NCBI RefSeq assembly: GCF_000425145.1
Contig: NZ_AULF01000011.1
Span: 1 to 64,000, forward strand
Length of the DNA stretch: 64,000 bases
Direction of reading: 5' to 3'
From: Pedobacter glucosidilyticus DSM 23534
GTDB lineage: Bacteria; Bacteroidota; Bacteroidia; Sphingobacteriales; Sphingobacteriaceae
Position numbers and translations under genes: made by a program. The notes below the pieces were generated by a model. That model was not told where the DNA came from. It was given only the letters and a program-made list of their open reading frames with translations, and did not search any database. Shown here piece after piece: positions 7,049-27,848 of the stretch; within the stretch, counting starts at the first letter, position 1, and every line of letters starts with the position of its first letter.

Positions 7049-8077
7049 CTATTTACTTAAATTTAGCGGAATTGCAACCGTATAGGATTTATCTTGAGCA
7101 TCCATAACTGCCGCAAATAGTATTTTTGGTATACCATTCTCAAAATAAAGCTGAGGCCTTTCTAGTTTCTTAACTTTCTCTAAGCCTGTTTCCCAAGGAA
7201 TTTCAATCTTAGAGGCTAAAGCATTTTTGGCTACTTTCCAGTTTATGGCATCATCAGACTCGAACAAAGCAATAGACAGACCCTGCTTAGTAAAAGAACC
7301 ACTAAAATCTTTAACTAAAGCCCAGTATTTATTGTTTTGCACCCAGATAAAAGGGTCTTCAGCGGGGAACTTAACTGTATCTTTAGTAAAAATCGGATTT
7401 GGAAGCTTTATAAATCCTTTAGCAGGATTTTTAGAAAAAGCCACCCTATGATTTACTTTGCCTCCAAAAGGCATAGGGCCATGTCCAACACTTTTATAAA
7501 CCATCACATATTTACCATTTAAACCTTTAGATACTGCTGGGTTGCTAACCATTAAAGAGTCGTAACCATCAGAGATATTTATTAATGGTTTTTTAAATCT
7601 TTTCCATGGACCTAATGGAGATTTTGAAACCGCAACACCTATACGCTGATGATTTCTGTTGTTCCAAAACTCTCCATTACCATAGTTACCCATGTAATAC
7701 AGGTAATATCTACCATCAAACTTATGTATGGTGGGATTATGGGTAACATCGGCATCCCAAAATTTCTTATCTCTTTTTGGCAATACAACTTTTAAAAATT
7801 TATACGGCCCTAATGGATTTTTAGAAACCGCCAATGCTACCTCACTATGTGTTACCCAATTGGTATGTTTTAAACTATCGGGCCAACGACTGTAAAATAA
7901 ATAGAATTGATTATCATCTCCTTTTATCATGCTTCCACACCAAACTTGATAACCGGGATCTGTAAACTTGGCATAAGACGGTACTTTTGTAATCCATTGA
8001 TTAAAGTTAATGTCTTGGCCTACTGAAAACAGGCTTAAACAACTTAGTAAGAAGGAAAAAATAATCTTTTTATTCAT
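7049..8077 (-). CDS. GH43/62/117/130-superfamily five-bladed propeller hydrolase, family unassigned
   Basis: The 342-residue protein has a signal peptide (1-20) and no extra domains. Blade motifs recur: DNQFYLFYSRW, GRYYLYYMGN, GKYVMVYKS and NKYWALVKD, alternating with VAVSKSPLGPW-type strands, as in the GH43/GH117 fold. Candidate acidic residues lie in WDADVTHNP, AEDPF and LERPQL. It sits directly behind SusD (10 bp gap), so it is probably an exo-acting hydrolase on imported oligosaccharides. A GH117-like anhydro-galactosidase role would suit an agar-type substrate, but family cannot be set by eye. Confidence 0.7.
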   Translation of the reverse strand: MNKKIIFSFLLSCLSLFSVGQDINFNQWITKVPSYAKFTDPGYQVWCGSMIKGDDNQFYLFYSRWPDSLKHTNWVTHSEVALAVSKNPLGPYKFLKVVLPKRDKKFWDADVTHNPTIHKFDGRYYLYYMGNYGNGEFWNNRNHQRIGVAVSKSPLGPWKRFKKPLINISDGYDSLMVSNPAVSKGLNGKYVMVYKSVGHGPMPFGGKVNHRVAFSKNPAKGFIKLPNPIFTKDTVKFPAEDPFIWVQNNKYWALVKDFSGSFTKQGLSIALFESDDAINWKVAKNALASKIEIPWETGLEKVKKLERPQLYFENGIPKILFAAVMDAQDKSYTVAIPLNLSK

Positions 8078-13134: not shown

Positions 13135-14406
13135 TTACTTTTTTTGATAGACCCTTACATAGTCTACTTCCATTTGTGTACCGTCAATAGCATCTGTAAT
13201 ATTTCCTGCCCAAGGAATTATGGCTAAACTTAACCATATCGGAGATGGACTCCAGCAGAATGTGTTCTTTTCTCTCCTGATTTCCTTACCATCAAAATAA
13301 AATACGAGTTCATCTTTTGTCCATTCTAAACCATAAGTATGAAACTCTTTCGCAAAATTATAGGTGCCTTTATCTAAATCAAACGAAGACATTTCTATCC
13401 ATTTTTTGCCATCCCAATATTCAACTTTATAATTATTGATGAGACCTTGCCAGGTTCCATTTGATAACCAGCCATTCACAAACTTAATACAACCTATAGT
13501 TTTAGCTTCTGCAAATTCAAATTCTATCCATTTCTCGCCTTTTGCTTGAGAAGTCCATCTGGTTTCAAGTTTACCATCGAGCATATTTTCCTTGCTAAAT
13601 GTAGTCCCCTCTTTATACTGACCACTTACGGTAATTTTAGTATCAGGTAATTTGTTAAAGTTTATTAAACCATCAGTAGGCTTATTACTAGTTAATAAAT
13701 TTGGGTAACCATTAGGATTAACATTATAAATGTTAAATTCTCCAATATTAAAATGAGCATTATGCGTTGAAGTAAAACGTATTTTAGTGGTAGCGATAGG
13801 TATTTCTAATTGTATCGTATAATCTGGTCTTGTACCAAAATTGAAAGTCTTAGAATCAGAAGGGTGCCTTTGTTTACCATCTTTCATGTATAGATCGCTC
13901 CAATTATGAATATTGGTAGCTATCTCATTAGGGTAATGGCCTTCATTGATATCAATTTCAAACTTTTTACCTTCTTTAGGCTCAATACCTTTTGTCATTA
14001 ACCAAAAGGAATTGTTAGTACCTTCTGCTGCTGCATATTTATATCTACACTCATAATATCCATACATAAATTGCTGTTTTGTCCAGATATTACCCGATGT
14101 CCAATTTTGTCCACCCCTTTGCTCTTTCTTATTGATGAGTTTTAAAGTACCATCACTAACGATAGCATTATCTCTCCATCTGCTTGATAGAATATGCCCG
14201 CTAGGACCATTTTGAGATTCCCATTCCTTATCTAAATTCTTATTTTCATAATCAAATTCATCGTTCCAAATCAACTTCCAATCTTTTGCATTCCCAGGAA
14301 GCATAGAGGGTGTGGATTTATCTGGTTGAGCTATACTCACAGAAGAGTTTATCACTAAAATTAAGGCAATAAAAAGTCTGTGGCTTAATCCATTAATCAG
14401 TTTCAT
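13135..14406 (-). CDS. GH16 endo-glycanase with discoidin (CBM32)-like insertion
   Basis: The 423-residue protein has a signal peptide (1-26). GH16 begins near residue 43 (KLIWNDEFDY), with ExDxxE motif EIDINE at 150-155. The jelly-roll is interrupted at about 190-345 and resumes at EFHTYGLEWTKDELVFYFDG (354-373), ending VDYVRVYQKK. Aligned by eye with the GH16 domain of the 705-residue neighbour, which has no insertion, the extra part looks like F5/8-C/discoidin sequence in permuted order: the C-terminal strands (TKIRFTSTHNAHFNIGEF, 207-224) come before the N-terminal half (MLDGKLETRW to NNYKVEYWDGKKW). It ends the six-gene oxidoreductase-to-GH16 operon. Confidence 0.85.
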   Translation of the reverse strand: MKLINGLSHRLFIALILVINSSVSIAQPDKSTPSMLPGNAKDWKLIWNDEFDYENKNLDKEWESQNGPSGHILSSRWRDNAIVSDGTLKLINKKEQRGGQNWTSGNIWTKQQFMYGYYECRYKYAAAEGTNNSFWLMTKGIEPKEGKKFEIDINEGHYPNEIATNIHNWSDLYMKDGKQRHPSDSKTFNFGTRPDYTIQLEIPIATTKIRFTSTHNAHFNIGEFNIYNVNPNGYPNLLTSNKPTDGLINFNKLPDTKITVSGQYKEGTTFSKENMLDGKLETRWTSQAKGEKWIEFEFAEAKTIGCIKFVNGWLSNGTWQGLINNYKVEYWDGKKWIEMSSFDLDKGTYNFAKEFHTYGLEWTKDELVFYFDGKEIRREKNTFCWSPSPIWLSLAIIPWAGNITDAIDGTQMEVDYVRVYQKK

Positions 14407-14438: not shown

Positions 14439-14957
14439 TTATTTTACTTCAACCAACATGATATCGTCAAATAAAACTTCACTTACGCCTATAGCTATTG
14501 AAAATTTAGCTTCTGGATAATCCTTACCAGTAAATGGAATACTGATTTCTTGCCATTCGTTTACCTTTAAGTTTTTATTTCTGTAAGTTTCAGCTATATC
14601 TTGTTCTGCTTTAAAACCAGTAGTTGCATAAACTCTAATTTCTACTTCTCTTATTTTTGTTAAAGGTTTCACCCACATTTTTAGCTCGTACTTTTTACCT
14701 GCACTTAATGTAAATTTTTGGACTTTTGGTTCGGTATAGAAATAAGTTAAACTGCCTTCTTTAGAAACCAATTTAAGAGATGAACTACCCGTATGCCCGT
14801 CTTGATTTATCAATTGGGTATTTGTTCCAGAAAAATTCCAACCTATTTTACCTTGCTCAAAACTATTATTAATAGTAATTAAATTTTGTGCTTTTACTTC
14901 CGAAGCTGCTAAACTTAAACTTGAAGCAACCAATAATTTTAAAAATGCCTTTTTCAT
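14439..14957 (-). CDS. Stand-alone secreted CBM4/9-like carbohydrate-binding protein
   Basis: The 172-residue protein has a signal peptide (about 1-23, ending VKAQ) followed by one beta-sandwich module: NNSFEQGKIGWNF, SSLKLVSKEG, YELKMWVKP and the terminal VLFDDIMLVEV. This is the pattern of CBM4/9-like modules. There is no catalytic domain. It lies between two GH16 genes (32 and 24 bp gaps), so it probably helps binding or presentation of the same glycan. The specific CBM family is uncertain. Confidence 0.75.
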   Translation of the reverse strand: MKKAFLKLLVASSLSLAASEVKAQNLITINNSFEQGKIGWNFSGTNTQLINQDGHTGSSSLKLVSKEGSLTYFYTEPKVQKFTLSAGKKYELKMWVKPLTKIREVEIRVYATTGFKAEQDIAETYRNKNLKVNEWQEISIPFTGKDYPEAKFSIAIGVSEVLFDDIMLVEVK

Positions 14958-14981: not shown

Positions 14982-17099
14982 TTATTTCTTTTGATAAATA
15001 CGTACCCAATCTACATCCATACTTTTACCACTCATACTATCTTTTAAAGGACCAGCCCAATTAATGACAGCGGTACTAAAAAACGGCCATACTGGAAGAT
15101 GTGCATTACAAACAGGTTTACGGTCTATTTCAACTCCATCAAAGTAAAAAATAAGTTCTTCTGGTGTCCACTCTAATGCATAAACATGGAAATCTTTGCT
15201 TAGATCTAAACCTGTGGCATATTTTTTACCGATACTCTCCTGCACACCTTGATTATTTTTTCCGGTATGTAATGTTGCGTTAATAAATTCGGGATAATGA
15301 CCTTCATTGATATCTATTTCAAATGCTCTCTGACCTTTATTACCATCATAAAAGCCATTCATCCAAAAAGCCTGATTCAAACCAGAAGCCTCAGCATATT
15401 TGTATCTTGCTTCCCAATAACCATAAGCTTGTTTAAAAACATCTTTTTTAACACCTACATGAGCTGATGTCCATTCTTGACCACCACGTTGCTCTCTTTT
15501 TGTAACCAACTTTAACAAGCCATCAGTAACACTTACATTTTCTTTCCATCTGCTAGATAATATATGATGGCTTGGCCCGTTTTGAGAATCCCAAACATCC
15601 CAGTTTAACTGGTTGCCATCAAACTCATCTTGAAAAGTTAAACTCCATTGTTGGTTTACTGGAGGGCCTGTCCATATAAAATGCTCAGCAAACTTTTTCA
15701 AAATAAGCGTAACCTCTAATTTGGTTAAATTTTTACTCTTGTAAGTTTGGAGTTCATCAACAAAAATTGTTTTATTTAGAGCATCTATAGCCTGTTGCTG
15801 AGTAATATTTTTTGAATATTTAAAGGTCTTATCTAGCCATTCTAAATTTTTCGGACTAGATTTTAAAGCATTTGCCAATAATGATATTATAAAATTTATA
15901 TCAGTTAGACTTTCAAGATTTATTTGTTTTGGATAAGGAATACTTATAAGCTTATTTAGGTAATCCAGAAACTCTCTTTTAGTTACTTTATTACTCACGC
16001 CAAAATTATCTGAACTATTAGATTTAACAATATTTCTTTTAACCATTATCCCAAAAGCTTCCCTTTGAGGATGATTTTCTAAATCTTTAAAATTATAAGC
16101 GTTTATTATTTTCATAACAGGTTTGACATCATTGGCGTTTACATAAATAGACTCCCAAACCCTGATAGTTGCATTTTCTTTGCTGTTAAGTATATCAAAT
16201 CTTACCGCACCTGCCCTAGTACTTACGTTGGGCGTCCTCTTAATAAGCTTTACGTACTCTTTACCTTCACCAGCAAAATCATACTTACCTAAATATACCC
16301 AGCCCATATTTTTCTTAGTGAAATCTAGTTTCACAGAGTCTCTTTTACCATGATGAACTATTTCATAAAAAGCTTCAGGATCATCATTACCAAATGGAGA
16401 ATAAACCTGATAAACATAAACTTCTATCTCTGCCTGTGCATATAATTTAGGATTCCACAAAGCTGTACTTCCAACTTTTCTGGAAACTATGGTAAATGGC
16501 TCCTTCTTAAGTGGACCTTTTAAAGCGCTCATCATCCAACTTCCTGTAATTTCAAAACCATCAACCGGAGTTATTTCTTTTAAATCGGTATTTTTAGGTT
16601 CTGGAAACAGAAAAGCATCCATGGGTTGTAAGCTATTTGCTTTTGTTTCTTTAACGAGGGTAAACTTAACTGTATTAACCCTAACCAAACTTCCATTAAC
16701 TAAAGTTTTCACAAACTCAGTTCCATCAGCATTAAAGCTATACTCGCCTAAGGTTACCCAACCCGTTGGAGCACTCATGTTTACACTTTTTCTATCTATT
16801 GTACCTTCATGACCAATTAAAAACAAGGTTTGCTTATCATTACTTGGATGTGATGGTATCCAAACTGATATTTCATAAAGACCCGATTTTCGTAATTTTG
16901 GCGTCCAAGTAACTGTCGATAGCTCTGTATTAGACCATCTTGGTGGTGTATTTTCATAGCCTATGCCTGCTCCAGACAGCCAAGAACCTGTTTCTTTGTA
17001 TCCTTCGTTTTGAAATTTTACAATATATTCTTGAGGGAAAATATTGAAGCTTACAAGGCTTAGTATTAATATGACGGATAATTGAAGCTTAATTCTCAT
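14982..17099 (-). CDS. Multidomain GH16: two golvesin-like domains, SLH-like region, catalytic domain
   Basis: The 705-residue protein has a signal peptide (1-23). Two related beta-domains follow (about 25-150 and 180-305), each with GSW...WxPKL...V-x-x-WVxLGxYxFxxxGxEfVK, resembling golvesin C-terminal/Xly-type carbohydrate-binding domains. Residues 336-470 resemble degenerate S-layer-homology repeats (FKDLENHPQREAFGIMVKRN, then KVTKREFLDYLNKL). GH16 occupies about 485-705, with motif EIDINE at 594-599. Its ATG overlaps the end of the GH2 gene by 11 bases, indicating translational coupling. The catalytic domain is a close relative of the one in the 423-residue GH16 nearby. Confidence 0.85.
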   Translation of the reverse strand: MRIKLQLSVILILSLVSFNIFPQEYIVKFQNEGYKETGSWLSGAGIGYENTPPRWSNTELSTVTWTPKLRKSGLYEISVWIPSHPSNDKQTLFLIGHEGTIDRKSVNMSAPTGWVTLGEYSFNADGTEFVKTLVNGSLVRVNTVKFTLVKETKANSLQPMDAFLFPEPKNTDLKEITPVDGFEITGSWMMSALKGPLKKEPFTIVSRKVGSTALWNPKLYAQAEIEVYVYQVYSPFGNDDPEAFYEIVHHGKRDSVKLDFTKKNMGWVYLGKYDFAGEGKEYVKLIKRTPNVSTRAGAVRFDILNSKENATIRVWESIYVNANDVKPVMKIINAYNFKDLENHPQREAFGIMVKRNIVKSNSSDNFGVSNKVTKREFLDYLNKLISIPYPKQINLESLTDINFIISLLANALKSSPKNLEWLDKTFKYSKNITQQQAIDALNKTIFVDELQTYKSKNLTKLEVTLILKKFAEHFIWTGPPVNQQWSLTFQDEFDGNQLNWDVWDSQNGPSHHILSSRWKENVSVTDGLLKLVTKREQRGGQEWTSAHVGVKKDVFKQAYGYWEARYKYAEASGLNQAFWMNGFYDGNKGQRAFEIDINEGHYPEFINATLHTGKNNQGVQESIGKKYATGLDLSKDFHVYALEWTPEELIFYFDGVEIDRKPVCNAHLPVWPFFSTAVINWAGPLKDSMSGKSMDVDWVRIYQKK

Positions 17100-19875
17100 A
17101 TTTTATGCTGGCTTTTAATTTCACGCTCTTTACAATCGTATTTTTTTGGAGCTTTAAAATCGCAAAAGAAACGGCCGATTTATTAATGTTATAATTGACT
17201 ATGCCTTTATCAGTTTCGCAAATCAGTTCATAAGAAATCGCGTTTTTTATAGATTTAAAACTCACCAATAGCTTATCATCTTGCTGAGTAAAACCATGAA
17301 CATAGGTATCCTTTTTAAATTCGCCCGCATAAGGTGTCACACTCATCACTTCGCTCCATTGATTTGCCGTTGGATAAAAAACCGGACTTCTAGAAATTTG
17401 ATAATAATAGGTTTGTCCATTTTTTAGATTTGGAACCCTCATCATACTGAAATTATTAGTGCTGATGGTTTTCCAACTTTCCACATCTTTCTCTGAAATT
17501 CCATATCTAATTTTGTAGAGCGCATCGGAATAATAATGGCTGTAACCTACAGCAAAAGCTTCTGACGCCGCTTGTGATTGCCAAATAATTGGAGGAAGAC
17601 TATTAAAGCCCGCTTCAGGCTTAAATATTTTAATTTCTGATGCTTTACTTTCTCCAAAACTATTAGTAGCGGTTAACCAAATTTTATAGGTTTTACCAAT
17701 GATAAGTTGATTAAGGTCTACATAATGATCAGTGGTTGACTCGGTAGACTTCACTACCCCATCTGTTTCATAATAAGCCTTATAAGTTATTGCAAATTCA
17801 TCTCTATCAAAAATGATTCTGGCTGCATTTGACGCTGTAATAAAATGTTTAATTTGAGGCGTTAATGGTTCTCTAAAAAACACCACAGTATCTTTAACAC
17901 TATATCCGGTTGATGATAAAAGTGATACTTTTAAACATACTGCCGTTGATGAAGACCATTTAATTAAAGACTTTACAGCAGCATCACCTGGTTTAATGTC
18001 TTTTAAGGCTATAAATCCAGTTTTTAGATTGATATGATTTACATCTCTAAGTTCCCAAACTAAATTATACCCTTTCAAAGTATATGCTGGAATATCTTGT
18101 TTACTACGAGGTTCTAAAGATATTTCTGCCTCTTCATTCTTAACTTTTATAGCGATAGCCTTTACAGGAGCGTAAAAGTTTTGCATCTGTCTAAAAGCTC
18201 TTTTCTTATTCCTATAAACATCTACAATGCCCCATTGCCTATTTTGATGAACCGGAGTAGCTGTTGCTAAGTTTGGAGACTGATAGGTGCTCCTATAATC
18301 ATTAAATGTCCAGATAGAATAGCCAATGAGATTATTTTTATCGCTTAGCTTATCAACCATTAAAGACTTAAATAGCGTATTATTTGGCGTATCGTAAATC
18401 AAATTATCTGCATGACCACCATACTCCGACATGAAAATAGCTTTATCAGGATAGCGTTTGGTAAGTTCATCCACGGCTTTTTCATAATTACCATATTTAT
18501 TGATATGAACTATATCTCCAAATTGTGCGGCATCATTATCTTGATAATCAGCAGTATGAGACACATAAGCAACTAATCTTGTGCTATCTAACTCTTTTTT
18601 AATGTAAGAGATGATGTTTTTTGTATAGTCATTTACATCTGGAAACTCTTTAAGATTTCCATTCTCGTTACCTACACTCCAACCAATAATACAAGGATGA
18701 TTAAAACTTTGTTGAATAAGTTTTTGAGCAAAAATTTTAGGTTCCTCACTTTTTCCGTTCATAAACTGAGGCCAATTATTAAATTCTGAGATGATGAGCA
18801 TCCCAACTTCATCTAAATAATTAAGTACATCATTAGGAAGAGGACGATGTGAAAGTCTAGCCATGTTTGCTCCTGCGGCTTTCATCAAATCTATATCTTC
18901 TTTATACCTGTAAGCAGGTAAAACGCTTCCAGTAGCTCTATCATCTGCTACCCAATTATAACCGGCTAGTTTTATTTGCTCTCCATTAAGATAAAGCTGT
19001 TGATTTTTAATTTCTACCTTTCTAATTCCAAACCTATCTGTTAAACTTCCTATATCCGTTTTAGCGTATGAAAGCGTTAATTTACTTTCATATAAATTTG
19101 GATGGTCGAAATGCCATAATTTCAAGGATTTAGCGTTTATAGTATGTTTCAATAAAACTTTAATTTCTGATTGTGCTGGTATGTTAATACCCTTTTTATT
19201 GCTTTTGACAGCTTCTTTACCTTCTAAACTAATGAGCTGATTTAAGTTAACAAGCTCGTTTTTAGAGGAGTTATTTTTAATAAAAATAGCAGTTTGTACA
19301 GTAGCAGTTTGTTTGTTTAAATCTGGCTGAGCTATAATTTCTTGACGATGAATAAAAACTGGGTTTCTTTGAGATACTTTTACAAATCGTCTGATGCCAC
19401 CCCAACTCCAATAAGCTCCCCATCCTAAAGTATTATCTATTTCCAAAGTGATTTGATGATTTTCATCAGTAGACAATAAATCTGTTACATCAAAATCTTC
19501 CAGATAATTACCTGCTAAAACATAGCCTACTTTTTTACCATCAATGTAAAGGGTATAGCTCATCCCTATCTCGCCAAGCTCTATAAAAACTCTTTTATTT
19601 TTATCTAAACGATTTAAAGTAAAATCTTTTCTGTACCAGGCCTTACCTTTAAAATTGGCATATTCGTTTTGCAAATCCCACAGGTGCGGAACTTGTACCA
19701 ACTCCCAAGAGCTATCATCAAAAACTTTAGAAAACCATTTTTGCTGCTCGCCCAATTGATTAGGATCTGTTTTAAAGCGCCAATCAGATTTTAAATTAAG
19801 CTCTTGAGCAAAACTTAAAAAAGTTTGTATAAAGCAAAAGAGTACTAAAAGATAAACCTTAACCCTCATCATCAT
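17089..19875 (-). CDS. GH2-family exported beta-glycosidase
   Basis: The protein has 928 residues from the ATG at 19875, chosen because MMMRVKVYLLVLFCFIQ is a good signal peptide and abuts the symporter stop; the longer frame overlaps that gene. GH2 layout is clear: sugar-binding jelly-roll (LNLKSDWRF to about 170), immunoglobulin-like domain, then a TIM barrel with acid/base Glu404 in GWSVGNENG and nucleophile Glu484 in FMSEYGG. The last 300 residues contain fibronectin-III-like repeats. A beta-galactosidase- or beta-glucuronidase-like exo-activity on GH16 products is likely. It lies in the first LacI-controlled operon. Confidence 0.9.
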   Translation of the reverse strand: MMMRVKVYLLVLFCFIQTFLSFAQELNLKSDWRFKTDPNQLGEQQKWFSKVFDDSSWELVQVPHLWDLQNEYANFKGKAWYRKDFTLNRLDKNKRVFIELGEIGMSYTLYIDGKKVGYVLAGNYLEDFDVTDLLSTDENHQITLEIDNTLGWGAYWSWGGIRRFVKVSQRNPVFIHRQEIIAQPDLNKQTATVQTAIFIKNNSSKNELVNLNQLISLEGKEAVKSNKKGINIPAQSEIKVLLKHTINAKSLKLWHFDHPNLYESKLTLSYAKTDIGSLTDRFGIRKVEIKNQQLYLNGEQIKLAGYNWVADDRATGSVLPAYRYKEDIDLMKAAGANMARLSHRPLPNDVLNYLDEVGMLIISEFNNWPQFMNGKSEEPKIFAQKLIQQSFNHPCIIGWSVGNENGNLKEFPDVNDYTKNIISYIKKELDSTRLVAYVSHTADYQDNDAAQFGDIVHINKYGNYEKAVDELTKRYPDKAIFMSEYGGHADNLIYDTPNNTLFKSLMVDKLSDKNNLIGYSIWTFNDYRSTYQSPNLATATPVHQNRQWGIVDVYRNKKRAFRQMQNFYAPVKAIAIKVKNEEAEISLEPRSKQDIPAYTLKGYNLVWELRDVNHINLKTGFIALKDIKPGDAAVKSLIKWSSSTAVCLKVSLLSSTGYSVKDTVVFFREPLTPQIKHFITASNAARIIFDRDEFAITYKAYYETDGVVKSTESTTDHYVDLNQLIIGKTYKIWLTATNSFGESKASEIKIFKPEAGFNSLPPIIWQSQAASEAFAVGYSHYYSDALYKIRYGISEKDVESWKTISTNNFSMMRVPNLKNGQTYYYQISRSPVFYPTANQWSEVMSVTPYAGEFKKDTYVHGFTQQDDKLLVSFKSIKNAISYELICETDKGIVNYNINKSAVSFAILKLQKNTIVKSVKLKASIKYEN

Positions 19876-19876
19876 G

Positions 19877-21541
19877 TTATTTTTTTCTTGAAACGTAAAT
19901 AATCCATAAAGCGGCAACAAAAATTACAGCGCCAACAGTTGATACTATAGTGGCATAATTATTTGCTAAATAGCCCAAAATACTGATACCTATCCCTACA
20001 AAAGCCATAGACAAACCTATTACCCTTACACCAAATAAATTCTGACTAACAGCTTCATCATGAGTTTCTTGAGATACAGCAACTGATACATTAACCTCTT
20101 GCTGCATAGCTAAATATTTTCCGGAAACCAGATTTTTAGATTTATAGTAAAATTCAAATACCAGCATTACAAAGGTTGGAATACCCATACCTAAAGCAGT
20201 TTCCCATGCTCTATTGAGCTTTAAGTCTAGTAAAGAAGGGCTTATCACTTTAAAGAAAAAGTTAATACTTAAGGCCAATAAGGTTGCCGTTACAACAGCC
20301 AAGCCTGTAGATCTTTTAGAGAATAAACTCCAAATGATAGGTGCAAAAAGAGCTCCACCTGCTATAGAAGCTGTACTTAAAACTACTTCTACAATACCGC
20401 CTGCGCTTGGTATCCAAATGGCTACTAAAATGGTAAGAATGCCAAATAATAAGGTAAAAAATCGGGCTATAAAAATAACTTCTTTATCACCAGCTGCGGG
20501 TCTTATTAAATTTTTATAAATATCTTGTGCAAATACTGTAGCGGCCATATTAATAGTGGTATTTGCTTTACTAGATGTTGCAGAAATCATCCCAGCTAAA
20601 ACCAAACCTATTAAACCTGCTGGCATAACGGTTTGTATCAACATCATGTAAGCACCTTCTGTTTCTAAACCTGTTAAAGATGGATTGATGATTCTATAAA
20701 TCATCGGTGGCAGCATCCAAATAAGCGGGCTAAACAAGTATAAAATGGTAAAAATACCTGATACCTTTTTAGCATTCTTAACATCAGAAACACTTGTGTA
20801 ACGCTGTACATAAGACCAATTGCCTCCTATATAAAAGGTTTGATAAGCAATAAAAGCCAGCATAAACTCAAAAGTATATTCCTGATTAAAAGGCTCAAAA
20901 AATCCTGTTGGAGCTTTCTCTATCAGGTTTGATATACCACCGATATTGTCTAAAGCAATAGGAATAACAATAATAACAGCTGCTGATAGTATTACAAATT
21001 GCACTACATCTGTTACCAAAACAGCCCATAAACCACCAGCTGCGGTATATAAAACAATAATTAAACCTATACCAATGATACATTCGTTTAATGTAAAAGG
21101 TGTAGCTACATATACCATTTTACCCACCGGATATAAAACTGCAGCTGTAGTAAATAAGCTTAAAAGTAAAGTTAAGTAAGTGTAAAACTGCTTTTCTTTA
21201 GATCCAAACCTTTTCCCCATATACTCAGCAGCAGTAGCAACACCTGTTTTCTTCCATTTTCCGGCAATAAAAATGGTTACAATTAAGCCACTTATGGCCA
21301 TGGTAAGTTGTATCACATTAGCAACTAAACCGCTACTGTAAGCTATAGAACCCCAAACTACAAAAGTTCCAGCAGAGAAATAACTGATAAAAAGTGATAA
21401 GCCGTTAATCCACCATGGTGTCTCACCTCCTGCTTCAAAAAATGCCTGTCCGCTTTTACTTCCTACTCTAGTAAACGTTAAGCCTATAGCAAAAATGAGT
21501 AAGGCAAAAACTGCCATTACCACAAAATCTAGTTGCGCCAT
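19877..21541 (-). CDS. SSS-family sodium:solute symporter
   Basis: The 554-residue inner-membrane protein has about 13-14 hydrophobic helices, beginning LDFVVMAVFALLIFAIGLTF. It carries SSS signatures such as GGETPWWINGLSLFISYFSAGTFVVWG near the N-terminus and a conserved GLVLAGMISATSSKANTTINMAA stretch. It probably takes the monosaccharide or small oligosaccharide from the periplasm using the Na+ gradient. Its stop is one base before the GH2 ATG, and the FAD oxidoreductase is 29 bp upstream, so all three are one operon. Confidence 0.93.
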   Translation of the reverse strand: MAQLDFVVMAVFALLIFAIGLTFTRVGSKSGQAFFEAGGETPWWINGLSLFISYFSAGTFVVWGSIAYSSGLVANVIQLTMAISGLIVTIFIAGKWKKTGVATAAEYMGKRFGSKEKQFYTYLTLLLSLFTTAAVLYPVGKMVYVATPFTLNECIIGIGLIIVLYTAAGGLWAVLVTDVVQFVILSAAVIIVIPIALDNIGGISNLIEKAPTGFFEPFNQEYTFEFMLAFIAYQTFYIGGNWSYVQRYTSVSDVKNAKKVSGIFTILYLFSPLIWMLPPMIYRIINPSLTGLETEGAYMMLIQTVMPAGLIGLVLAGMISATSSKANTTINMAATVFAQDIYKNLIRPAAGDKEVIFIARFFTLLFGILTILVAIWIPSAGGIVEVVLSTASIAGGALFAPIIWSLFSKRSTGLAVVTATLLALSINFFFKVISPSLLDLKLNRAWETALGMGIPTFVMLVFEFYYKSKNLVSGKYLAMQQEVNVSVAVSQETHDEAVSQNLFGVRVIGLSMAFVGIGISILGYLANNYATIVSTVGAVIFVAALWIIYVSRKK

Positions 21542-21570
21542 TAATGTATATGTTTATAATTTAAGTTTAA

Positions 21571-23850
21571 TTATGCTTTATAACATCTTACTCCAAACAA
21601 AGATGCAGGCACCTGTGGAGATGGGTGTTGTAAAATTATATGTAATGAAGATGTTTGCAAAACTTCTTCAAAACGAATGGTATTTACAGTTTGATAATTA
21701 TCTTTTTTCTCAAAAACTACTAAACCTTTATCATCTTTGATGATATAATTTCTTACACAAAATGGCATAACATCTTCTGGATGCCCCATCAATACGCTTT
21801 CCATCGGATGGTCAAAATCGGTATCAAAAAATAAATCTATTTGTTTGATAGCCTCAGGCTTTTCCCAAGTTATGGTTATGGATGGTTTTTCATCCGTTAA
21901 AGATGCTACCCAAGCGTTAGGCTGTACAGACGGCCTATAAATACCTGTTTTTATATTTTCTTTATCAAAAGCTGTTATTGAAGGGTCAAATCTTAAAGCT
22001 AAGTTATGGCCTTCTGGTCTTCTCTGCGGACACCAAAATTCAAATTCATCTACACCAATATCTTCTGAAGGTGTTTGTTTTCCAAAATTGGATACTGCCT
22101 TGTTAACCGCGTTGAAAACAGATAAGACTCCGGTTATTCTCTTTTCTGAAAAATAAATTTTAAGCTCTGGATTCTTTTTAAAAACAATAAAAGCGTATTG
22201 CTCTTGAGTTATTGTTTCATCAAAATCTATCAAGACTTCTTGTTGGCCAGCTTTAACAGCGATGGTTTTGCTTTGTAAGATATCATCAGGGGTAAAATTT
22301 CCTAGTTTAGTACTTAATCTTAATTCTACTTCCAAATGAGTATCAGCCATGGCATATACTTGGAGGTACATACTTGGAATACGACCAACCTTTAGAGGTA
22401 CCATTTGCGCCATAGACCAATCCATACTCTTTAATATATCTGCAGATAGACTATCTAAACTTAGCGTACTTGATACAGCAATTTGAGAAGATTGAACCAA
22501 ATCATCTTGAGCTTGATGTAGAACACCAGGAATATGATGACCTGTTTTTAAAAGCTCTTGCTGCAATTCTTCAAGATGATTTTTCTCTAAGATTTCTTTT
22601 GGTGATACTTTATGTTTTAAAGCAATTTTAGCAGCCATACCAATTGCCTGGCCAATATGTGCGCCAGTTGCCATTACCCTAGTAGAAGCAAAAGCCACAT
22701 GGGTTGCGCTAATAATTCTTCCTGCTAAAAACAAGTTACTAATATTTTTACTGTATAAACTCCTAAATGGAATTTGATAAACACCTTTAGCATGCCATTG
22801 ATTACAACCTGGCTTTTCACTAAAAACGCCATCTGCTGGGTGTAAATCAATAGACCAACCGCCATAAGCAACAGCATCAAAATGTGTTCTTTGCTCAACA
22901 ACATCTTGTTGTTTGATGATATAATCACCTTCAAATCTTCTGCTTTCTCTCTTACCAGGGATGGCACCAACCCATTCTAAAGTTAAGTTTTCTGCATCAG
23001 GAAAATTGCCTGAATTTTTGATATAATTCCATACACCATAAACAACCTTCCATAATTCCCATTTAATTTCTTCAGTATCATGAACGGTATCTAGCCTGCC
23101 TCCGTATTCTAACCACCATAGCCTACAGCCATAATCTTTAGAGCTAAAATTTCTAAAACGTGGAATTTTGGTAATATCAGTTAAAGCAAATTCGGGCGGA
23201 CTAAACTTTACTGGCTTACCCACATCTTTGCTGTAGAAATAAATACTATGACCAAGAAGCTCACCATATTCTTTTGCAGGCGCAAATTTCTCCCCAAACT
23301 CTTCCATACTTTCTGCGCCCATTCTAAAAGCCGCACCAGAAAGGAAACCTATAATTCCGTCTCCAGATGCATCACAATAATAATTAGCTTTAAACTCATA
23401 CTCGGTAGAGTTTTGGCTACAAAATGCTTTTACTGATGATATTTCTTGAGGAGAAGATTTATCTAAATCGTAAACTACTGTATTCAAAAACAATTGAATA
23501 TTAGGTTCAGAAACAACTTTATCAAGTAAGATGGTATCAAATATTAAAGGATTTCCTTCTTTATTCTTATATGTGTTCTCTACTAATATTTCATCTATAA
23601 CACCACCTTCTCTAGACCAACGATTGTTATTACCTAAGTGTGAAGTTGCACCTAAAATCCATAACCTAACCTCGCTACTAGAATTACCTCCCAGAACCGG
23701 ACGATCTTGTACTAAAACTACTTTAACACCTACCCTAGCAGCTGTAATAGCAGCACAAACTCCTGACAGTCCACCTCCAACAACTAATAAATCAGCTTGG
23801 ATTGTTTTTTTTAACAAACTCCGTTTTATCTCAGAATCTCCCTTAATCAT
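21571..23850 (-). CDS. FAD-dependent oxidoreductase (FAD_oxidored/PF12831 type)
   Basis: The 759-residue protein has a Rossmann FAD-binding motif VVGGGLSGVCAAI (about residues 22-35), then the VLVQDRPVLGGNSSSEVRLW motif typical of the PF12831 family that is frequent in Bacteroidota and Planctomycetota glycan loci. FLAGRIISATHVAFASTRVM forms the second FAD contact. There is no signal peptide, so it is cytoplasmic. The C-terminal 200 residues form a beta-rich region. It is the first gene of the six-gene operon with the symporter, so it may oxidise an internalised sugar. The substrate is unknown. Confidence 0.85.
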   Translation of the reverse strand: MIKGDSEIKRSLLKKTIQADLLVVGGGLSGVCAAITAARVGVKVVLVQDRPVLGGNSSSEVRLWILGATSHLGNNNRWSREGGVIDEILVENTYKNKEGNPLIFDTILLDKVVSEPNIQLFLNTVVYDLDKSSPQEISSVKAFCSQNSTEYEFKANYYCDASGDGIIGFLSGAAFRMGAESMEEFGEKFAPAKEYGELLGHSIYFYSKDVGKPVKFSPPEFALTDITKIPRFRNFSSKDYGCRLWWLEYGGRLDTVHDTEEIKWELWKVVYGVWNYIKNSGNFPDAENLTLEWVGAIPGKRESRRFEGDYIIKQQDVVEQRTHFDAVAYGGWSIDLHPADGVFSEKPGCNQWHAKGVYQIPFRSLYSKNISNLFLAGRIISATHVAFASTRVMATGAHIGQAIGMAAKIALKHKVSPKEILEKNHLEELQQELLKTGHHIPGVLHQAQDDLVQSSQIAVSSTLSLDSLSADILKSMDWSMAQMVPLKVGRIPSMYLQVYAMADTHLEVELRLSTKLGNFTPDDILQSKTIAVKAGQQEVLIDFDETITQEQYAFIVFKKNPELKIYFSEKRITGVLSVFNAVNKAVSNFGKQTPSEDIGVDEFEFWCPQRRPEGHNLALRFDPSITAFDKENIKTGIYRPSVQPNAWVASLTDEKPSITITWEKPEAIKQIDLFFDTDFDHPMESVLMGHPEDVMPFCVRNYIIKDDKGLVVFEKKDNYQTVNTIRFEEVLQTSSLHIILQHPSPQVPASLFGVRCYKA

Positions 23851-25251: not shown

Positions 25252-26493
25252 TTAAGCTACTTTTAAATTATCCGTTATAAGTTGAGTTTCTGATACCTGA
25301 AGAACTTCAACTTTTTCATTTTTAGCTGATTTCTTACTTAGTATATTAAGATAAACATATCCAGCGCCTGCTGATATTAATGATGCTATCAAAATACAGA
25401 ATTTAGCTTCTAGCTGAAATAAAGGTGATGAAAATGATAAGAGCGATACAAAAATAGACATGGTAAAACCTATTCCGCCCAACATCCCAACACCTATAAC
25501 CTGTTTCCAGCTCGCTAATCTTGGTTTTTTAGCTACTTTAAGTTTTACTGCAATCCAAGAAGCTAGAGTAATACCAAGAGGTTTTCCGATAAATAAACCA
25601 GCTATGATACCTAAACCTAAAGGACTAAATACCCCATCTAACATTGCTGATTCAAACCTAATATTGGTATTCACAAATGCGAACAAAGGAATAATCACAT
25701 AACCTACTGGTTTGCTTAAAGCATGTTCTAATTTTTCCATTGGAGAATATTTTCTTTTCTCGCTTGTTGCAGGAATGGCAATAGCTGTTAGTACACCTGC
25801 GATAGTAGCGTGTATACCGCTATGATGTATAAAGTACCATAAAGCTAAACCTGGTATGATATAAAATACTACTTTTCTAACACCAAAATAATTTAAAGAC
25901 ATTTGGAAAGCAAAAACACCTAAAGCTAATAATAAGTAGTTAAAATGAATATCTGAAGTATAAAATAAAGCAATTACTACGATGGCTCCTAAATCATCTA
26001 CAATAGCTAAAGCTGTTAAAAATATCTTCAAGGAGTTTGGAACTCTGTTCCCTAAAACAGCTAATATTCCAATAGCAAAAGCAATGTCTGTAGCCATTGG
26101 AATTCCCCATCCTCCTTCTGTTTTTGCACCATAATTAAACAAAAAATATAACGTTGCTGGCATTAACATACCACCTAATGCCGCTATAATAGGTAAAAAA
26201 GCTTGTTTAACAGATTTTAACTCTCCATCTACTATTTCCCTCTTTATTTCTAGCCCTACATATAGAAAAAAAACAGCCATCAGACCATCATTTATCCAAC
26301 TTAAGGTGCTATATTTTAAATCTAATCCAAAACCTTCAAAACCAAATTCAAAATTTAATAAGTTAATTAAATAATCACCTAATAAGGTGTTAGCTACTAA
26401 AATAGAAAGAACCATACATAAAATAAGTATAATCCCACCTTTAGACTCAGCTTCTATGAATTTTTTATAGATATTTTGGCTTAATTTTCTCAT
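25252..26493 (-). CDS. nhaA: NhaA-type Na+/H+ antiporter, copy 1
   Basis: The 413-residue membrane protein has about 11-12 helices. The NhaA signature TALAIVDDLGAIVVIALFY contains the two transport Asp residues, and WGIPMATDIAFAIGIL and INDGLMAVFFLYVGLEIKRE are also typical. It exports Na+ in exchange for protons. A second nhaA lies 176 bp upstream, separated by a terminator, so the two are probably transcribed separately. It carries a longer charged C-terminal tail than its paralogue. Confidence 0.95.
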   Translation of the reverse strand: MRKLSQNIYKKFIEAESKGGIILILCMVLSILVANTLLGDYLINLLNFEFGFEGFGLDLKYSTLSWINDGLMAVFFLYVGLEIKREIVDGELKSVKQAFLPIIAALGGMLMPATLYFLFNYGAKTEGGWGIPMATDIAFAIGILAVLGNRVPNSLKIFLTALAIVDDLGAIVVIALFYTSDIHFNYLLLALGVFAFQMSLNYFGVRKVVFYIIPGLALWYFIHHSGIHATIAGVLTAIAIPATSEKRKYSPMEKLEHALSKPVGYVIIPLFAFVNTNIRFESAMLDGVFSPLGLGIIAGLFIGKPLGITLASWIAVKLKVAKKPRLASWKQVIGVGMLGGIGFTMSIFVSLLSFSSPLFQLEAKFCILIASLISAGAGYVYLNILSKKSAKNEKVEVLQVSETQLITDNLKVA

Positions 26494-26616
26494 TTCTCTA
26501 TAATTTTAATGTTTATATTGATTTTTTCATTACAAATAAACAAAAATTTCATAAAAAATACTCAACAAACCCATTAATACAATAATTTTTATTAAAATAA
26601 CAAAAAAATAAAACAA

Positions 26617-26641
26617 AAAAAGCTAGAAATTCTAGCTTTTT
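26617..26641 (-). terminator. Intrinsic terminator between the two nhaA genes
   Basis: The stem AAAAAGCTAGAA / TTCTAGCTTTTT has one unpaired base and T-runs on either strand. It lies 29 bp downstream of the stop of nhaA copy 2. Confidence 0.85.
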
Positions 26642-26669
26642 CAAAATTATACTTGTAAAATTTCAATTT

Positions 26670-27848
26670 TTAAACTTCTTGCTGCTGTTTTGCTATAGAG
26701 TTTAACACAAAAAAACCCAATATACCGGCTAAAACAGAAGCTATGAGGATAGAAAACTTAGCTTGTATCTGGTAATCATGCTCAGAAAATGATAATAATG
26801 CTATAAAAATAGACATGGTAAAACCAATACCTGCCAATAAACTTAATCCCAAAATTTGTTGCCATCTAGCACCTAAGGGTAAACTGCTTATTTTCATTTT
26901 TACTGCTATAAAAGACATCAGCATAATGCCTAACGGTTTACCAATTAACAATCCTATAATTATACCTAAGCTTAATGGACTTGTAAGGCCATCTAACATG
27001 GTAGATTCGAACTTGATATTTGTATTGGCTAATGCAAATATGGGCATAATTAAAAAATTTACTGGCTTGACCAATACATGTTCTAACTTCTCTAAAGGAG
27101 ATTCTTTATCATCTTCTGTAGTAGGTAGAAAAAATGCTGTTAAAACACCTGCAATTGTTGCATGAACGCCAAAACCATGAACAAAGTACCATAAAAATGC
27201 CCCTGGAATGATGTACATCCAGATCTTTTGTACATTGAAGTAATTAAGTAAAAACAATATGGCTAAAACTCCTAAAATATAGGGCAAATAGCTTAAATGT
27301 AATTCTTCAGTATAAAAAAACGCAATAACAAGTATTGCTCCCAAGTCATCTACAATAGCTAAAGCAGTTAAAAATATCTTTAGTGATAAGGGCACCTTAT
27401 TTCCTAGTAAAGAAATTACAGCTATGGCAAAAGCTATATCTGTAGCCATAGGGATACCCCAACCGTGTAATGTTGGCGCAGATGAATTGATGAGTGTATA
27501 AATTAAAGCTGGCGCTAACATTCCACCTATGGCAGCAAAAATAGGTAAGCTTGCTTGTTTAATAGATGATAACTCTCCTTCTACCAGCTCTCTTTTAATT
27601 TCTAAGCCCACTAAAAGAAAAAACACCGCCATTAAGCCATCATTAATCCATAACAATACAGGATATTGTAAATGAATATTTTCAGAATGATAACCTATTT
27701 GTGTATTTAACAAAGCTTCTAATGCAGGACCTACAGCTGTATTAGCCAAAATCAGAGATATGATTACGCATACCATCAAGAGTATTCCTCCGGCAGATTG
27801 AGATTCGAAAAAATTTTTAAAGATTTTTAAATTAATAAGTTTCGGCAT
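26670..27848 (-). CDS. nhaA: NhaA-type Na+/H+ antiporter, copy 2
   Basis: The 392-residue membrane protein is a close paralogue of the downstream nhaA, with the same WGIPMATDIAFAIAVI and TALAIVDDLGAILVIAFFY core, including both Asp residues. A YrdC/Sua5 gene ends 29 bp upstream and may be co-transcribed. The tandem pair could reflect different pH or Na+ ranges, which cannot be judged from sequence. Confidence 0.95.
   Translation of the reverse strand: MPKLINLKIFKNFFESQSAGGILLMVCVIISLILANTAVGPALEALLNTQIGYHSENIHLQYPVLLWINDGLMAVFFLLVGLEIKRELVEGELSSIKQASLPIFAAIGGMLAPALIYTLINSSAPTLHGWGIPMATDIAFAIAVISLLGNKVPLSLKIFLTALAIVDDLGAILVIAFFYTEELHLSYLPYILGVLAILFLLNYFNVQKIWMYIIPGAFLWYFVHGFGVHATIAGVLTAFFLPTTEDDKESPLEKLEHVLVKPVNFLIMPIFALANTNIKFESTMLDGLTSPLSLGIIIGLLIGKPLGIMLMSFIAVKMKISSLPLGARWQQILGLSLLAGIGFTMSIFIALLSFSEHDYQIQAKFSILIASVLAGILGFFVLNSIAKQQQEV

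Follow-up and report, generated by a model that had tools for sequence, protein, structure and literature searches.

The gene described here occupies positions 13135..14406 (reverse strand, stop codon included) of the window, the whole 64,000-nucleotide stretch of Pedobacter glucosidilyticus DSM 23534 that was analysed, and it encodes a protein of 423 residues according to the list of open reading frames. Pfam assigns the product to GH16 (PF00722), matched in two stretches with 66.3 bits against a cut-off of 22, and to F5_F8_type_C (PF00754), matched at residues 258-343 with 37.8 bits against a cut-off of 28.2. A hydrophobic N-terminus, recognised by inspection of the translation, forms a putative signal peptide (residues 1-26; 14329..14406, reverse strand). 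The first part of the GH16 catalytic domain follows at residues 41-191 (13834..14286, reverse strand), delimited by alignment to an uninterrupted neighbour and to the homologue L031 and by the structural model; it carries the catalytic motif EIDINE (13942..13959, reverse strand), an instance of the GH16 signature ExDxE or ExDxxE, at residues 150-155, where the preliminary description had placed it. The second part, recognised by alignment to uninterrupted GH16 proteins, comprises residues 348-423 (13138..13365, reverse strand). Between the two lies an insert of 156 residues, approximately 192-347 (13366-13833), in agreement with the break at about 190-345 noted earlier. Its leading segment (residues 192-244; 13675..13833, reverse strand) is assigned to the canonical C-terminal half of a discoidin module by the Pfam gain on moving it behind the other segment and by a cut-point scan; its trailing segment (residues 245-347; 13366..13674, reverse strand) is the canonical N-terminal half, within which the PF00754 match covers only profile positions 2-83 of 127 in the native order. 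In the neighbouring GH16 protein (14982-17099) the domain is uninterrupted, as had been stated before, its alignment covering residues 41-168 and 350-423 of the present protein, and the homologue L031 from a Mariniphaga metagenome bin aligns to residues 1-192 and 350-423. The splitting of the GH16 domain by a discoidin-type insert is confirmed as a real feature.

The surrounding genes, likewise on the reverse strand, include a GH43/GH117-like gene (7049..8077; Pfam GH43), a GH2 gene (17089..19920; Pfam GH2, with solved beta-galactosidase and beta-glucuronidase relatives), a sodium:solute symporter gene (19877..21541; Pfam SSF) and a gene for an FAD-dependent oxidoreductase (21571..23850; PF12831, 329.5 bits). 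The cluster also has SusC/SusD-type genes, identified by inspection, an SGNH hydrolase and a LacI regulator; the SusC-type gene has an annotated counterpart in L058, a TonB-dependent receptor. At thresholds of at least 28% identity and at least 40% coverage, homologues were found in 16 (GH43/GH117-like), 14 (GH2), 8 (oxidoreductase), 6 (symporter) and 5 (LacI regulator) of 25 insert-bearing loci, which are L007-L029 and two plasmid loci, with L037 left out and several ending at contig edges. This recurrence indicates that the enzyme belongs to a recurrent cluster. Solved relatives of the GH43/GH117-like protein include 3,6-anhydro-alpha-L-galactosidases (4ak5-4ak7, 3p2n), aligned over short stretches only, which points weakly to a galactan; with the GH2 partner, an agar-like galactan is a tentative candidate substrate. 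No paper combining GH117, GH2, GH16, an FAD-dependent oxidoreductase and a symporter was found in a literature search of partial coverage.

Several further features of the region deserve mention. The symporter and the oxidoreductase of about 760 residues (19877-23850) recur together beside inserted GH16 genes in two phyla, with homologues in L014, L028, L029, L058 and L059. In Pfam the uninterrupted neighbour (14982..17099, reverse strand) has golvesin-C domains and GH16 together with an SLH domain (25.3 bits against a cut-off of 20.8), a domain that is unusual in Bacteroidota. Transfer between phyla is suggested by relatives matching about three quarters of this protein, L038 from an Armatimonadota bin and L039 from an Oscillospiraceae bin. 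A stand-alone CBM4_9-type protein of 172 residues (14439-14957, reverse strand) is encoded between the two GH16 genes, and no homologue of it was found in the 25 related loci at the thresholds used. Two tandem genes (25252-27848, reverse strand) were named NhaA-type sodium/proton antiporters from the look of their translations.

The order of the two halves was examined by scoring ten inserts with Pfam in the native order, with the C-terminal half moved behind the N-terminal half, and after a single scrambling of the moved half in each. Rotation raised the PF00754 score by 8.4-12.1 bits in nine of the ten, whereas scrambling changed the native score of these nine by -2.6 to +3.6. The native, rotated and scrambled scores were 37.5, 48.7 and 39.7 bits for the window insert; 33.3, 44.6 and 36.9 for L007; 36.7, 48.8 and 36.1 for L010; 30.3, 42.0 and 32.9 for L012; 33.3, 43.8 and 34.0 for L013; 32.4, 40.8 and 30.9 for L015; 24.3, 35.1 and 25.8 for L020; 27.2, 39.2 and 24.6 for L025; and 22.0, 32.1 and 23.9 for L028. 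After rotation the match reached profile position 113-119 in all nine, and the window insert then covered positions 2-119 of 127, nearly the whole profile. The tenth insert, L024, gave no PF00754 match in native, rotated or scrambled order. With PF22633 the rotated order scored above both the native and the scrambled order in ten of ten, L024 included (17.6, 25.9 and 22.2 bits for native, rotated and scrambled). The preliminary description had named such a comparison with F5/8-C profiles as a check on its reading, and the outcome favours the permuted order in nine of ten inserts with PF00754 and in ten of ten with PF22633.

Since the joint had first been picked by eye, a cut-point scan was carried out in which the insert profile was cut circularly at every fourth column and scored on four discoidin domains of canonical order encoded in the same loci. 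Summed over the four, the score was 106.4 bits in the native order; cutting before residue 245 gave the maximum, 140.7, and cutting before residue 326 the minimum, 54.8. Canonical domains in L013, L032, L010 and L026 matched at least two thirds of the rotated profile (positions 14-147, 6-143, 23-128 and 21-124 of 156, respectively), whereas they matched the native-order profile only from position 59 or later. Weaker matches were mixed: L057 and L012_12020 scored better after rotation, and the weak match L023_3_968 scored slightly better in the native order (E 0.0017, against 0.0051 rotated). For nine further canonical proteins from nine genomes, among which L069 and L075 are one protein, the best domain was matched in one stretch by the rotated profile and split by the native one.

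In a profile comparison with the PDB at E values up to 0.1, the native-order profile matched 14 chains. All of these matches begin at position 59 or later and so lie in the canonical N-terminal half, and none of the 14 spans the whole profile. The rotated profile matched 24 chains, 18 extending into the moved half and six matching one half only. The best match, 4a42, was obtained at 4.8e-9 over positions 5-140 of 156 after rotation and at 9e-7 over positions 59-129 in the native order; glucanase and chitosanase chains gained little from rotation, and AlyQ gained nothing. The Pfam scores of rotated and scrambled inserts, the cut-point scan, the canonical domains and the solved CBM32 chains together support, from sequence, the reading of the insert as a single, circularly permuted F5/8C (discoidin, CBM32-like) module. 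This was the preferred reading of the preliminary description, whose observation that C-terminal discoidin strands precede the N-terminal half is borne out, the two halves lying at 192-244 and 245-347.

Structure prediction from the single sequence was poor (pLDDT 31.6). An AlphaFold2 model built on an alignment of 34 sequences, six of them rows without the insert, reached a pLDDT of 90.2 and a pTM of 0.84. Structural comparison with VIA-align gave, among the matches listed, Z values of 24.4-27.0 to GH16 chains over 200-231 residues spanning the protein (best match 3iln, Z 27.0, rmsd 2.9, 222 residues), as expected for the GH16 beta-jelly-roll; with 200-231 residues covered, most of the insert is unmatched. 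The VIA-align matches listed are GH16 enzymes by their titles wherever these name the enzyme. Among the matches listed by Foldseek and VIA-align for the whole-protein model there are GH16-type enzymes and none that aligned to the insert alone; made with the whole protein, these searches are uninformative on the fold of the insert. Within the insert (model residues 166-321) the ten-residue means of pLDDT are mostly 82-96, falling to 69 at 211-220, in the linker, and to 77 at 311-320. By inspection, its strands and the short helix that precedes DG are placed as expected for a discoidin module. A confident model devoid of a beta-sandwich insertion would have spoken against the earlier reading; the model obtained is confident and its insert is rich in strands. 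Its strand pattern is consistent with an insert in a surface loop of GH16, and its confidence, together with the length of the insert and the profile coverage, suggests that both halves may fold into one eight-stranded sandwich.

A scan of genome contigs yielded 51 loci. The native-order insert profile scored above 100 bits in 24 of them (L007-L029 and L037; L026 and L037 are contig-end pieces of one bin and may be one gene), seven are uninterrupted (L031, L033-L036, L038 and L039, five of which are also in a separate alignment), and the remaining 20, truncated or distant, stand outside both counts. The insert aligns throughout 28 sequences, the window included, and can therefore be neither fortuitous nor the product of misassembly in the window. 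All 28 retain E150, D152, E155 and H167 of the catalytic domain and R210, N249, G312 and W336 of the insert; E223 and G278 are kept in 27, D277 and W293 in 26, and N311 and W319 in 24. The inserted sequences come from three phyla, Bacteroidota, Pseudomonadota (Gayadomonas, Marinimicrobium) and Verrucomicrobiota, and the insert-bearing loci include named strains of Algibacter, Wenyingzhuangia, Flavicella and Gayadomonas. When the insert was searched alone in a plasmid collection, two records were matched (Persicobacter and Catenovulum), both GH16. Searches with the whole protein found only the genome of origin, both in its own taxonomic family (one of 201 genomes at E 1e-60) and in its phylum (one of 395 at E 1e-40). 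The native-order insert profile likewise found only this genome among 247 of the phylum at E 1e-8; at E 1e-5 it matched 10 of 201 genomes of the family, the other nine being canonical-order domains, which were used as controls. The distribution of the inserted GH16 is patchy. In six loci (L008, L009, L015, L020, L023 and L029) two adjoining GH16 genes both carry the insert, one of the L008 pair being partial, which indicates that the architecture has been duplicated locally.

The insert-free L031 bears on how the module has come and gone. The segment missing from it corresponds to L018 residues 188-339, and it shares 80% identity with L018 on either flank. In a tree of the GH16 parts only, it falls within the inserted sequences, under starred branches, and three changes are needed on this tree to account for the six insert-free rows. 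A constraint uniting the 28 inserted rows as a clade that leaves out L031 cost 38 log units (p-AU 0.036, a modest value), whereas one clade of inserted rows including L031 was not rejected (p-AU 0.242). The base of the tree is unresolved, and the direction of gain or loss cannot come from the tree itself; the simplest account is one gain followed by at least one clean loss of the insert. L033 and L035, in the unresolved part, may represent losses or the older state.

We propose, with a probability of about 0.8, that the protein is a secreted GH16 endo-glycanase of a polysaccharide-utilisation cluster that carries one complete, circularly permuted F5/8C module. The module would sit between the GH16 strands 183-189 (SDSKTFN) and 356-362 (HTYGLEW). 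The chain would enter it between two canonically consecutive module strands, run through the canonical C-terminal strands, pass through a new linker (about 228-256), continue into the canonical N-terminal strands and finally re-enter GH16. With lesser certainty, the module may bind polysaccharide, and the double tether may, unlike a flexible tail, keep the polysaccharide chain next to the catalytic cleft; the module would most likely act as a carbohydrate-binding module fixed rigidly alongside the cleft of the endo-glycanase. It might also reshape substrate binding, as suggested in the preliminary description.

A less likely, though serious, alternative is that the insert is a structural or protein-contact element of discoidin fold that binds no sugar, its conservation reflecting packing against GH16 or against a partner. 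Many of the conserved residues look structural (R210, E223, D277, G278, W293 and W336), the weak matches of the rotated profile include APC10, the discoidin domain of a protein complex, and a homologue dispenses with the module altogether. The enzyme is, however, encoded in a saccharide-utilisation cluster, and the best solved relatives of the insert are modules of carbohydrate enzymes. Conservation also extends outside the core (N311, G312 and W319), though packing would explain this as well.

The permutation might serve to orient the module. An ordinary CBM32 has its two chain ends on the side away from the ligand-binding loops, so that the attached module faces away from the enzyme. From the strand topology of CBM32, the loop of entry and exit in the permuted module is presumably on the ligand-binding side; the binding loops could then face GH16 and extend the catalytic cleft by a further wall or a lid. 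This suggestion is speculative and somewhat unlikely; were it true, the wall or lid could be removed by evolution in a single step, as in L031.

It is improbable that the insert consists of two half-modules left by trimming of a tandem array, a C-terminal half followed by the N-terminal half of the adjoining repeat, which form no complete sandwich. In its favour, L024 and L028 have a short linker between the halves that by eye resembles the joint of tandem discoidin repeats, and duplication followed by trimming is a common route to a permutation. Against it, the halves together amount to one profile length (2-119 of 127 in the window), the insert is mostly modelled with high confidence, and the two halves occur jointly throughout the 28 aligned members. 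The fused halves of two modules that the preliminary description offered as its other reading are mainly a statement on origin, and may be the route by which the permutation arose; the short linkers hint at an origin of the insert in the interior of a tandem array. Nothing was found in favour of a decayed gene or of an artefact of sequencing or assembly, an explanation of negligible probability given the single open frame, the recurrence of the architecture in 24 of 51 loci including named strains, its presence in two complete plasmid records and a catalytic motif intact in 28 of 28 sequences.

The insert-free GH16 (PF00722) enzymes 3iln, 6xqf, 3wvj and 1dyp share the jelly-roll domain and the ExDxxE motif with the present enzyme; the aligned GH16 pieces are about 40 residues apart in 3wvj and about 208 here. 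Several GH16 subfamilies have a conserved histidine on the strand adjoining the motif, according to PMC6827312, which is matched here by H167 in all 28 inserted sequences. CBM32/F5_F8_type_C modules such as 4a42, deposited as an alpha-N-acetylglucosaminidase family protein, and YeCBM32 (2jd9) match the insert over a nearly complete profile after rotation; the present module differs in its permuted strand order and in being nested within another domain. GH16 and CBM32 do occur in one protein in the GH16_8 subfamily, where about 75% of the enzymes have a linked CBM32 according to the same article (PMC6827312); there they are described as linked modules, whereas the present one is nested, and the words "insert" and "circular" are absent from that article. 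Also close are the "Family 16 glycosylhydrolase" proteins of Persicobacter psychrovividus pPP8 and Catenovulum adriaticum pCadTS8_2, which are 55% and 50% identical to the window protein, have the same architecture and are annotated in their records only as family 16; like the window gene, theirs adjoin symporter, FAD oxidoreductase, GH43/117-like and GH2 genes. That an entire further domain can be accommodated within the GH16 jelly roll is reportedly illustrated by GluXyn-1, an engineered GH16 lichenase with a xylanase in a surface loop, which differs from the present enzyme in being artificial and in the domain inserted; engineered circular permutants of the same lichenase, in which GH16 itself is permuted, are also said to exist.

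A permuted or nested discoidin/CBM32 module in GH16 was not found described in a literature search of partial coverage: GH16 linked to CBM32 is known, and the nested permuted module is a variant for which no description was found. The arrangement is kept in scattered bacteria and cleanly absent from one close relative, and is thus a real and unusual design of modular enzyme. Because order-dependent profiles detect one half only, other permuted modules may hide in databases as partial matches. Carbohydrate-binding modules are usually arranged as beads on a string; the doubly tethered nested module and its natural insert-free homologue (80% identity) provide a clean comparison for the effect of a rigid coupling between binding and catalysis.
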